Shown here piece after piece: positions 1-40,254 of a DNA stretch of 40,349 nucleotides (within the stretch, counting starts at the first letter, position 1; each line of letters starts with the position of its first letter). This stretch comes from a virus, in IMG/VR virus record IMGVR_UViG_3300037493_002359, positions 1 through 40,349 of that record; one strand, written 5' to 3'. The notes below the pieces were generated by a model. It was not told where the DNA came from, ran no database searches, and saw only the letters and a program-made list of their open reading frames with translations. A program made the translations under genes and the position numbers.

Positions 1-54
1 GGTTTCCGCCTCGCGCGCATTATTTGCGCTCTTGAGACCAAATCTCAATAGTAT
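1..54. repeat. Imperfect direct repeat, copy 1
   Basis: The first 26 bases are identical to 40201-40226, nine bases then differ in part, and about 19 bases (gaccaaatctcaatagtat) match again. Copy 1 starts exactly at the window edge, 40200 bases before copy 2. It contains a perfect inverted repeat TTGAGA (32-37) / TCTCAA (43-48), which is degraded in copy 2. Because the copies differ inside and diverge completely afterwards, this is not a simple terminal redundancy from a circular assembly. A duplicated control site or att-like site is possible; no integrase is present. Confidence 0.75.
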
Positions 55-26820: not shown

Positions 26821-26969
26821 GAAATCCTGTAAGCGGTGAGAGCAGCGCCAGAGGTTGCTTCAGCCTCATATTGCGTTTGACCGGGCAGACGTGGCAATCC
26901 GCCGCCCCGGAACTTTGGGAACGCTTGGAATCTGGCGTGGCTGGGCGTGGCGGGGCAGGGCCAGGCTAG
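26817..26969 (+). CDS. Possible 50-residue ORF running into repeat array 1
   Basis: ATG 26817 overlaps the upstream stop (ATGA), giving MRNPVSGESSARGCFSLILR and then GLY/ARG/ALA residues dictated by the GGCNN array, ending at TAG inside the array. The coupling is suggestive, but the last 12 residues are low complexity. A leader-peptide role is possible. Weak support. Confidence 0.25.
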   Translation: MRNPVSGESSARGCFSLILRLTGQTWQSAAPELWERLESGVAGRGGAGPG

Positions 26970-27035
26970 GCTTGGCAAGGCAAGGCGTGGCATGGAATAT
27001 GGCGGGGCAAGGCGCGGCTCGGCGCGGCACGGAAC
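26934..27035 (+). repeat. GGCNN period-5 array 1
   Basis: GGC stands at every fifth base from 26934 to 26989 (12 units), then GGAATAT gives a two-base phase break, and six more units follow from 27001 to 27026, with a closing GGAAC at 27031 and then TTGGGCTGG. The NN dinucleotides are different in nearly every unit, so it is not a simple satellite. It lies in an intergenic position and is followed by an A/C-rich leader. Similar design at 28275. Confidence 0.9.
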
Positions 27036-27110
27036 TTGGGCTGGCGTCACAACCAGCAAACACAAAACACACACGGAACAAGGAACACAACACAACACAA
27101 CACTAGACAC

Positions 27111-27779
27111 ATGTACCAGAAAAACTACGCAGTCACACTAACAGGAGCAACTGACCTCCTAATGCACAGAGACAACATCGACTTCGGGGCCAAGACCCGC
27201 GCATGGCAGAAAGATCCTGCCAACAAAAAGATGTCGGTGGCCGGAGACGACCGCTCGCCAGCGTGGAGCTGGTTATCGTGTCTCTACACAGCCGGCGGTC
27301 AGGTAGTCATCGACAGCGACAACATCATGTCGATGCTGCGCGACGGCGGAAAGAAGTGCTCGGCGCCTACTGGCCGGGGCTCAATGAAAGCGCAGACGCA
27401 ATCAGGCATCATCTGCAATGAGATCGGATGGCCGATCACCCTGGCCGATGGGCGCAACATCGACAGCAACGCGCTACTTGCGATGGTGAAGGAGAGCGAG
27501 TTTGAAGAGCACGAGAAGGCGGCGCAGGAAGCGGGATTCGTTCTGTTCGTGAAGCGTGCGCGGGTCGGCACATCCAAACACGTCCGCGTTCGTCCGCGCT
27601 TCTCGAACTGGTCGGCCAGCGGAACGCTCACGGTGGTCGATCCAAGTATCACACTTGAGATGCTCCAGCACATCCTGACCTTCGCGGGCTGCTTTTGCGG
27701 TGTGGGCGATTGGCGACCATCGTCACCGACACCCGGTCAATTCGGTCGGTTCACTGCAACCATCACAAAGCTCCCTTAA
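27111..27779 (+). CDS. Hypothetical protein, conserved GDWRPSSP type
   Basis: A 222-residue protein from ATG 27111. The frame is open upstream to 27036 but only through the array and leader, so the later ATG after CACTAGACAC is used. Motifs: YAVTLTGATDLLMHRDNIDF, SWLSCLYTAGGQVVIDSDN, LFVKRARVGTSKHVRVRPRF, and a closing GDWRPSSPTPGQFGRFTATI. The last piece recalls a glycine-rich loop, vaguely RAMP-like. I do not recognise a characterised family. The A/C-rich leader upstream (27061-27110) has no SD. Confidence 0.65.
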   Translation: MYQKNYAVTLTGATDLLMHRDNIDFGAKTRAWQKDPANKKMSVAGDDRSPAWSWLSCLYTAGGQVVIDSDNIMSMLRDGGKKCSAPTGRGSMKAQTQSGIICNEIGWPITLADGRNIDSNALLAMVKESEFEEHEKAAQEAGFVLFVKRARVGTSKHVRVRPRFSNWSASGTLTVVDPSITLEMLQHILTFAGCFCGVGDWRPSSPTPGQFGRFTATITKLP

Positions 27780-28219: not shown

Positions 28220-28274
28220 GATGACAAACCCGGAGGCATTATTCGGAGTGGTGCCTTTCGGGCGCGTGGATTTT

Positions 28275-28397
28275 GGCTGGGCGGGGCGCGGCGCGGCATG
28301 GCTCGGCCGGGCTAGGCACGAGCGAGGCAAGGAATATGGCACGGCCCGGCGCGGCGTGGCGTGGCAAGGCAGGGCCCGTCGAGGCAGGGCATGGAAC
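28275..28397 (+). repeat. GGCNN period-5 array 2
   Basis: GGC stands every five bases from 28275 to 28315 (nine units); after a GAG variant and a one-base slip comes GGC 28326, then GGAATAT gives the same phase break as in array 1. Eight units run from 28338 to 28373, followed by a GTC variant, two more units, and a closing GGAAC at 28393 with AAGGGCGGG. The internal and terminal landmarks are the same as in array 1, while the NN positions differ. Confidence 0.9.
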
Positions 28398-28446
28398 AAG
28401 GGCGGGCACATCCGCAAGAACAACAAACCAACAACAACACAACCGT

Positions 28447-28689
28447 ATGACCAAAAAAGATTGGCAACCATTTGAAACTGCTCCCAAAGAGATAAACACC
28501 GTCGTCTTGGCTACTTGGGGCACCCGCAATTTTGTGGGTGGATACATCACTATCGCTAAAAACGAGTCAGGATGGGAAGACACTCTGGACCGCACCAGAC
28601 AGTTTAACGAAGTTGGAAAAAACATTAAGGATAATGGTTATTGGCTTTTGCAATGGACACCAATCGCCAAAATTTTTATTTGGTCATGA
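28447..28689 (+). CDS. DUF551-like protein 1
   Basis: An 80-residue protein from ATG 28447, after array 2 and an A/C-rich leader. The opening MTKKDWQPFETAPKEINTVVL fits the DUF551 pattern W-P-x-x-TAP, and the end is a YWLLQWTPIA strand. It has two paralogues at 31459 and 32557. The stop overlaps the next start (ATGA). Function of the family is unknown. Confidence 0.7.
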   Translation: MTKKDWQPFETAPKEINTVVLATWGTRNFVGGYITIAKNESGWEDTLDRTRQFNEVGKNIKDNGYWLLQWTPIAKIFIWS

Positions 28690-29318
28690 TTGTAATGCCT
28701 TCAAACAACACGGGATTTGCCGCCGGATTTCTTTTTGGAAAGCATCCGGGACGACTTGGCCACTTGCACTCTGTGGAATCACCACGCGAACCAGTCCAAG
28801 GAATTCCTTGGGCTATGGACAACGGTGTTTTTGGTGCATGGTCTTCTGGTAAGCAATGGAGCGAGGAGCCGTTGTATCGCTACCTCGACGATTACGCTGC
28901 ATGGAAACCGCTGTGGGTCGTTGTGCCTGACTGGGTGGGTGACAGAGACGAGACACTGCGTCGATGGGATCAGCACGCGCCGGCGCTACAGTCTTTCGGC
29001 GTGCCACTCGCGATGGCAGTGCAAGACGGGATGACTCCCCCCGACGTGCCGAAAGAATGTTCTGTGCTGTTTGTGGGAGGCTCCACTTCGTGGAAATGGC
29101 GCAGTCTACCCATGTGGACATCCTCATTTCCTCGTGTTCATGTGGGACGAGTTAATTCCATCCGCTTACTGTTGATAGCGGAAAACGCTGGGGCCGAGTC
29201 TTGCGATGGGACCGGTTGGTTTAGAGATCCAAGACGCACGGCAGAACTAGCCAGCTACCTTTCGCACGATCACAACCACCCTGACCTATGGAATGCCCCG
29301 ATTGCGAATACGAAATGA
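28686..29318 (+). CDS. DpdA-like DNA base-exchange enzyme (TGT superfamily)
   Basis: A 210-residue protein from ATG 28686. Diagnostic pieces in order: FLFGKHPGRLGHL, IPWAMDNGVFGAW (D45), VPDWVGDRD, MAVQDG (112-115), FVGGSTSWKW (131-), VHVGRVNSIRL (151-), and AESCDGTGWFRD (candidate nucleophile D174). These recall the tRNA-guanine transglycosylase fold used by phage DpdA enzymes to insert 7-deazaguanines in DNA. No preQ0 synthesis genes (FolE/QueD/E/C-like) are seen here, so the precursor would come from the host. Substrate is unproven. Confidence 0.75.
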   Translation: MIVMPSNNTGFAAGFLFGKHPGRLGHLHSVESPREPVQGIPWAMDNGVFGAWSSGKQWSEEPLYRYLDDYAAWKPLWVVVPDWVGDRDETLRRWDQHAPALQSFGVPLAMAVQDGMTPPDVPKECSVLFVGGSTSWKWRSLPMWTSSFPRVHVGRVNSIRLLLIAENAGAESCDGTGWFRDPRRTAELASYLSHDHNHPDLWNAPIANTK

Positions 29319-29506
29319 ACGAACCGACGTCCGACTTCTGGGGCTATTGCTGCGCCGAGTGCGGACATTTTCAACCACTTTATGAACATATACGAAACTG
29401 CCCACCAAGCTGCATGTCCGAACGGGGATTTGATGGATACCTACAAGATCACGATCCGCTCACAATCCACCATCATGGCGGAGGAGATTCTGCGGACATT
29501 GAATGA
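29288..29506 (+). CDS. Zinc-ribbon-like mini-protein
   Basis: A 72-residue protein: MECPDCEYEMNEPTSDFWGY, then CAECGHFQP and NCPPSC. Two CxxC pairs (CPDC, CAEC) suggest a zinc ribbon. It overlaps the end of the DpdA-like gene by 31 bases and overlaps the next gene in another frame, so its C-terminal third may not be functional. Reasonable, not certain. Confidence 0.5.
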   Translation: MECPDCEYEMNEPTSDFWGYCCAECGHFQPLYEHIRNCPPSCMSERGFDGYLQDHDPLTIHHHGGGDSADIE

Positions 29507-29624
29507 AACACCGCCAGAAATTTATCAAGAGAGTTTAGCGACTTTCCTGCGTGCTAAACTTGGCGCAGAAGTCACCGTCGAAGGGTGGCACCACGGCATT
29601 AAAATTACCAGCATTAGACTTTAA
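29433..29624 (+). CDS. Small hypothetical protein
   Basis: A 63-residue protein from ATG 29433; a longer start at 29382 would add 17 residues and overlap the zinc-ribbon gene more. MDTYKITIRSQSTIMAEEIL, then helices and WHHGIKITSIRL. The beta-alpha pattern resembles a small ACT/ferredoxin-like module. No function recognised. Confidence 0.5.
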   Translation: MDTYKITIRSQSTIMAEEILRTLNETPPEIYQESLATFLRAKLGAEVTVEGWHHGIKITSIRL

Positions 29625-31957: not shown

Positions 31958-32560
31958 ATGAACGACGAACATCCTTTTACCGCATTCCCGAAGATGGCCC
32001 GTTTGCAACGCGAGGTCATCGTCACCGAGAAAATAGATGGCACCAACGCACAGATACACATCACCGACGACGGTAAAATGCTGTTTGGTAGCCGCACCCG
32101 TTGGATCACCCCCGGGGACGATAATTTTGGATTCGCACGGTGGGCCACCGACCACACGGACGAGCTGATGCAACTCGGGCCGGGCCGCCATTTTGGCGAG
32201 TGGTGGGGCCGTGGCATCCAGCGCAACTACGGACTCAATTATCGCAAGTTCAGCTTGTTCAACGTCATCCGTTGGTGCCCGCATGGGGAAGAACCAAAGC
32301 AGATCCCGACCGCTGACCCACGCAACGTCAAATTGCAGGACATGCTCCCCTCCTGCTGCCATTTGGTCCCGATCCTTTGGCAGGGGTTGTTCACCTCAGT
32401 GATTCCCACGGTGCACCTTTGGGAGCTAAGCCAGACAGGCAGTAAAGCCGCACCCGGTTTTGCTCGCCCTGAAGGCATTGTGCTGTTCCACGTCGCCGGG
32501 AACGTCGGATTCAAAATGACCTTGGACAATGACGGAGTACCTAAATCCACTTTGAAATGA
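31958..32560 (+). CDS. RNA ligase family nucleotidyltransferase
   Basis: A 200-residue enzyme with ligase motifs in order: motif I EKIDGTNAQIH (Lys25 as adenylation site), FGSRTR, motif III FGEWWGRGIQRNY (79-91), motif IV RPEGIVLF (170-177) and motif V GFKMT (Lys186). This is the core of the Rnl2-like RNA ligase family that seals nicks in RNA, often repairing host-cleaved tRNA. The C-terminal domain is short. A DNA-ligase role is less likely. An A-rich leader (AAACTAAAACAAAC) precedes the ATG. Confidence 0.85.
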   Translation: MNDEHPFTAFPKMARLQREVIVTEKIDGTNAQIHITDDGKMLFGSRTRWITPGDDNFGFARWATDHTDELMQLGPGRHFGEWWGRGIQRNYGLNYRKFSLFNVIRWCPHGEEPKQIPTADPRNVKLQDMLPSCCHLVPILWQGLFTSVIPTVHLWELSQTGSKAAPGFARPEGIVLFHVAGNVGFKMTLDNDGVPKSTLK

Positions 32561-40200: not shown

Positions 40201-40254
40201 GGTTTCCGCCTCGCGCGCATTATTTGTACTGTTGCGACCAAATCTCAATAGTAT
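40201..40254. repeat. Imperfect direct repeat, copy 2
   Basis: The first 26 bases equal 1-26 and the block gaccaaatctcaatagtat is shared; the inverted TTGAGA half is changed to TTGCGA. The flank after it (TATACTAATGAC) differs from copy 1. TATACT (40252-40257) is a good -10 box, without a clear -35 at 16-18 bases. Confidence 0.75.

Follow-up and report, generated by a model that had tools for sequence, protein, structure and literature searches.

A phage contig from IMG/VR encodes, side by side, a short relative of the guanine transglycosylase DpdA and an 80-residue protein with the predicted fold of archaeosine synthase QueF-Like (QueF-L). By analogy with characterized enzymes, we tentatively propose that the pair is a minimal module for phage DNA modification, which would use host preQ0 to place 2'-deoxyarchaeosine (dG+) in phage DNA. 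This caution applies to the module as described, taken as a whole, and allows for the fact that its steps are correlated. The proposal draws on the predicted folds, on residue conservation, selection and gene linkage, and on the absence of FolE, QueD, QueE and QueC. The window, by which we mean the whole stretch of DNA analysed, comprises the 40,349 bases of an IMG/VR virus record; because it is a linear virus contig, it is possibly a fragment of a genome. Its features are collected in Table 1.

Table 1. Position of the features of the window discussed in the text
Feature	Position	Strand	Remarks
Predicted short DpdA-like guanine transglycosylase	28686..29318	+	210 aa; phrog_15826; key residues D45, D82, Q113, G131-G132, D174, R180
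Upstream ORF, function unassigned	28273..28689	+	stop (TGA) overlaps DpdA ATG as ATGA
T-fold protein like archaeosine synthase QueF-Like	29382..29624	+	80 aa; phrog_37496; C12, D19, E34, E50
Zinc-ribbon-like ORF, two CxxC	29288..29506	+	72 aa; overlaps DpdA end and QueF-L start, in different frames
RNA ligase	31958..32560		phrog_548, E 8e-30; early gene region
G-rich leader of GGCNN pentamers	26934..27032		5' of ORF 27036..27779
G-rich leader of GGCNN pentamers	28275..28378		5' of the putative DpdA transcription unit
Imperfect 54-bp direct repeat	1..54 and 40201..40254		contig ends; no exact terminal repeat

A short sister family of phage DpdA

The ORF named in the original prediction is present as described, with the TGT-fold motifs MDNGVF (D45), VPDWVGD (D82), QDGM (Q113), FVGG and ESCDGTGW (D174). 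Relatives were found on 101 stretches in IMG/VR, and 22 GenBank phage records encode one, some annotated as 'DpdA-like tRNA-guanine transglycosylase'. Comparison with the nearest relative (L002) gave a pS of 0.74, which puts synonymous changes close to saturation, and a pN of 0.049; the window DpdA is a real gene under strong purifying selection, and a chance ORF at this position is ruled out by the homologues together with selection. Because the stop codon of the upstream ORF overlaps the DpdA start, the arrangement suggests that the two belong to one transcription unit.

Searches of Pfam, NCBIfam and PDB sequences with the window protein gave no match. Against PHROG, it matched phrog_15826 (E 9e-32), which is annotated as of unknown function, whereas the value for canonical phage DpdA, phrog_887, was 0.15; some of its short relatives match phrog_887 at 1.7e-5. 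By these comparisons, phrog_15826 is a short sister family of canonical phage DpdA and not a member of phrog_887. A comparison by hhalign of the short family with a profile of ten canonical phage DpdA proteins gave an E of 3e-7 and paired D45 and D82 with D63 and D105 of CAjan DpdA; direct comparison of the family with E. coli TGT was uninformative. Fifteen members, reaching down to about 30% identity, share D45-N46-G47, P81-D82, Q113-D114-G115, G131-G132, H152, G154, N157 and D174-G175 without exception. By eye, the spacing from D174 to R180 equals that from D264 to R270 of E. coli TGT.

The AlphaFold2 model (pLDDT 90) matched Zymomonas TGT in Foldseek (E 3e-6), and VIA-align superimposed it on tRNA-guanine transglycosylase, a TGT-type TIM barrel, with a Z of 15.0 over 201 residues. 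It also matches several phage queuine tRNA-ribosyltransferases, the nt-1 protein R9TGF0 and a Cellulophaga phiST protein. D174, which had been singled out beforehand for structure prediction, fell on D206 of CAjan DpdA in the full-length alignment. Of the DpdA-like identity first proposed, the TGT/DpdA fold and the catalytic layout stand; the protein is not a canonical DpdA. By analogy with these enzymes, the window gene very probably, as a rough judgement, encodes a guanine-type transglycosylase.

With the canonical proteins (phrog_887; 9g, CAjan, Iggy and Sonali gp87) the window protein shares the motif order DSGAF/DNGVF, LDxIGD/PDxVGD, GG, SCDSSSW/SCDGTGW. It differs from them in being about 90 residues shorter, in belonging to a separate PHROG, in lacking a full preQ0 cluster alongside it in the window, and in carrying Gln113 at the place that, by motif order, corresponds to H132 of CAjan DpdA, the conserved DpdA1 histidine. 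The short and canonical forms are different things, and both are found in Arthrobacter phage Sonali and Vibrio phage R29Z, whose genomes also contain QueC, QueD, FolE and a radical SAM (QueE-type) gene. The other five short-form cultured phages tested have no QueC, PTPS, FolE or radical SAM gene. The likeness to bacterial TGT (E. coli, Z. mobilis) lies in the barrel and, by inspection, in the D89/D264-type motifs; in contrast to TGT, the window protein has no Zn-binding and tRNA-binding parts, and identity is 14%.

It had been suggested that the small size of the protein might mean a different target. This argument is weak because the published DpdA of Salmonella phage 7-11 is also short, at 234 residues, and the whole of phrog_15826 falls at about 205-215 residues. 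The 7-11 protein is nevertheless nearer to canonical DpdA (E 3e-13) than to the short family (E 1.5e-6).

Among the bacterial occurrences, Verrucomicrobia bacterium LW23 has an identical short DpdA on two large contigs (L092 and L093), one of them near a Mu-type portal gene, and the pair is for this reason probably a duplicated prophage.

An 80-residue partner with a predicted QueF-Like fold

The locus had been described as lacking a precursor pathway, a description that overlooked a previously unannotated ORF starting 64 bp 3' of DpdA. Its product matches a PHROG family annotated as of unknown function, and no Pfam family, PF14489 (QueF) included. The AF2 model (pLDDT 94) has a bbaabb topology, and its top 13 PDB matches in Foldseek were all QueF-L (E 2e-5 to 1e-4). 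In VIA, QueF-Like ranked first, with a Z of 13.1 and 1.4 Å over all 80 residues, compared with Z values of 11.6 for GTP cyclohydrolase I (FolE) and 9.5 for QueF. A profile search of all PDB sequences also placed QueF-L first, but weakly (E 0.018), and hhalign against a single phage QueF was uninformative. By inspection, the alignment of the mini protein contains no stretch of the type ESKSLKLY, which we take to be the NADPH-binding motif of QueF and which is present in the phage QueF Funsized gp2.

Cys12 and Asp19 align with Cys21 and Asp28 of QueF-L and are invariant in 16 IMG/VR members. Selection on the gene is purifying (pS 0.54-0.88, pN 0.09-0.21). In QueF-L, preQ0 becomes bound to Cys21 as a thioimide, an aspartate serves as acid/base, and nitrogen is donated by free ammonium (PMC5485725); by analogy, we judge in rough terms that the mini protein probably acts on the nitrile of preQ0. 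Compared with the archaeosine synthase QueF-Like of Pyrobaculum calidifontis (5jyx/5k0p), it keeps the T-fold along its entire length and the Cys/Asp pair, but identity is about 20%, it has 80 rather than about 100-109 residues, and it is phage-borne beside DpdA, whereas the archaeal enzyme belongs to a tRNA pathway.

When the window sequence alone was used as the query, a search of IMG/VR gave no relatives of the mini protein, whereas the family alignment retrieved 19 loci, with a short DpdA just upstream in 18 and QueD 3' of the mini protein in 8. In the clade of the window and L002-L005, as well as in L025 and L046, DpdA is followed by an 80-residue protein; next to the remaining short-DpdA genes, the search gave no QueF-L homologue. 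ORFs similar to the zinc-ribbon-like ORF that overlaps both genes lie in the corresponding position in L025/L242 and L249, and probably in L241 and L237.

Two cultured phages also carry the mini protein. In Rhizobium phage RHph_X2_30 a distant copy lies directly upstream of a DpdA-type protein, within a row (L253; MW980061.1 55474-57173) that runs from a YhhQ-family transporter through a small ORF and the mini T-fold protein to the DpdA-type gene. The transporter belongs to Vut_1 (DUF165), the family of the preQ0 importer YhhQ, and this gene row is likely a salvage operon. In Pseudomonas phage Epa33 a copy lies directly upstream of another DpdA-type protein. Both of these DpdA-type proteins match the canonical branch; the mini protein is therefore paired with more than one branch of DpdA. 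Neither copy keeps the aligned Asp19, which calls for caution.

Precursor genes in the window and its relatives

No FolE, QueD, QueE or QueC turned up when 60 ORFs of the window were searched against Pfam, or when the contig was screened, with positive controls included, for the QueC, PTPS/QueD, GTP cyclohydrolase I and radical SAM families, in agreement with the original prediction. In this the window resembles the singleton-DpdA phages (group 3 of Hutinet et al. 2019, including Orion and 7-11), for which no QueF-L partner was reported, and differs from the phage preQ0 clusters of groups 1-2.

Most short-DpdA relatives have QueD and no QueE or QueC. PTPS/QueD was adjacent or close in 60 of the 80 short-DpdA IMG/VR loci and in none of 80 control loci, which came from contigs picked for an unrelated repeat and were similar in total length; QueD was a neighbour in 22 of 27 informative clusters when DpdA was clustered at 90% identity. 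These neighbours are of two types: in type A the QueD signatures CxxxHGH and Glu are intact, while type B is without the catalytic Cys and Glu, retains the Zn histidines and lies beside a nucleoside 2-deoxyribosyltransferase-like gene (PF05014). The order QueD-like, nucleoside 2-deoxyribosyltransferase-like, short DpdA was seen in about 30 loci (L023, L049-L081 and L090; for example, L076:5235-6639).

The tree groups the window with L002-L005 in one clade (97% SH-aLRT) that is nested in QueD-A-linked lineages, and a search for QueD elsewhere in the contigs of this clade found none. This nesting indicates that QueD has probably been lost or replaced there. QueC is present in six of the seven bacterial genomes that hold a relative.

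Proposed pathway and alternatives

We infer enzyme activities, a DNA target, a host source of preQ0 and a dG+ product; for the residue roles, TGT and QueF-L serve as the analogues. The host would provide preQ0 (7-cyano-7-deazaguanine); in rough terms such a supply is very likely, and the earlier suggestion that the phage uses host preQ0 is plausible. The short DpdA would then exchange guanines in phage DNA, very probably its target by the same rough reckoning, for preQ0; D174 would carry the covalent intermediate, D45 would act as the acid/base, and D82, Q113 and GG131-132 would hold the base. Cys12 of the mini QueF-Like protein would attack the nitrile, assisted by Asp19, and the addition of ammonia would turn the nitrile into a formamidine. 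The product would be dG+, the base of phage 9g, which on a rough estimate we consider on balance likelier than dPreQ1 and which would protect the phage DNA from restriction.

The same module might end instead in dPreQ1 or plain dPreQ0, with the small T-fold protein serving as a nitrile reductase or as a preQ0 carrier to DpdA. Phage proteins earlier called QueF-L, those of Dp-1 and HVTV-1, mostly yielded dPreQ1, and among singleton-DpdA phages Orion had no modification and 7-11 had 50 dADG per million nucleotides (PMC6884629), so that dPreQ1, dPreQ0 or no modification is also possible for the window phage. That Asp19 is not conserved in the RHph_X2_30 and Epa33 relatives likewise favors dPreQ1 or dPreQ0. 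Nevertheless, we regard such an end product as rather unlikely, since the predicted structure is closer to QueF-L than to QueF, Cys and Asp are invariant across the IMG/VR members, and the presumed NADPH motif of QueF is absent. An action of the pair on RNA, placing archaeosine or preQ0 in host or phage tRNA, would fit the tRNA-guanine transglycosylase fold of DpdA, the likeness of Gln113 to the TGT glutamine rather than the DpdA1 histidine, and the work of archaeal QueF-L on preQ0-tRNA (PMC5485725). It is nonetheless improbable: the 210-residue protein is without a Zn/tRNA-binding domain, no tRNA genes were found in the window, and the proven phage DpdA relatives modify DNA (PMC6884629).

Comparably improbable is that the locus is an orphan remnant whose QueD has been lost and whose actual host makes no precursor, leaving the phage DNA unmodified as in Orion; the position of the QueD-less window clade among QueD-linked relatives is compatible with this, but strong purifying selection on DpdA, purifying selection on the mini QueF-L gene and intact active-site residues argue against it. 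It seems very improbable that the base inserted by the short family comes from a source other than preQ0, such as a pterin or CPH4. The presence of QueD with no QueE or QueC in most relatives, and of QueD-like proteins without the catalytic Cys and Glu beside the deoxyribosyltransferase, would suit such a base, whereas the partner of QueF-L fold found in the window clade speaks for preQ0 and the bacteria holding relatives usually have QueC. A broader reading, which we consider doubtful, takes phrog_15826 as a separate guanine-transglycosylase subfamily with interchangeable partners, at least one combination of which installs an undescribed DNA base. The window clade would have the mini QueF-L as its partner, many others would have QueD, and a third clade would have the QueD-like protein lacking Cys and Glu together with the deoxyribosyltransferase-like protein.

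Of the phages in the published 7-deazaguanine survey, those with a lone DpdA make up the largest group and the one least well explained, and their modification status was described as hard to predict (PMC6884629). The locus described here shows that a DpdA which looks solitary has, in at least one case, an 80-residue partner that had gone unrecognised and that predicts a specific base, dG+; the occurrence of the same partner family in other phages, two of them cultured, makes this prediction readily testable. If the dG+ module is real, it would be a deoxyarchaeosine kit of two genes, a much smaller set than that of phage 9g. By analogy, the phage likely disguises its DNA with this minimal kit, borrowing the raw material from its host.

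Other features of the window

The window also encodes an RNA ligase, and its ends carry an imperfect direct repeat (Table 1). The two G-rich leaders consist of GGCNN pentamers in uninterrupted runs of 12, 6, 9 and 8 units, which did not occur in any of 50 shuffles; for the G-rich leader, folding did not surpass that of shuffles (z -0.48). As a host marker, the GGCNN arrays were found in 0 of the 7 bacterial genomes holding relatives. Runs of nine GGC units were present in at least 120 stretches in IMG/VR contigs.
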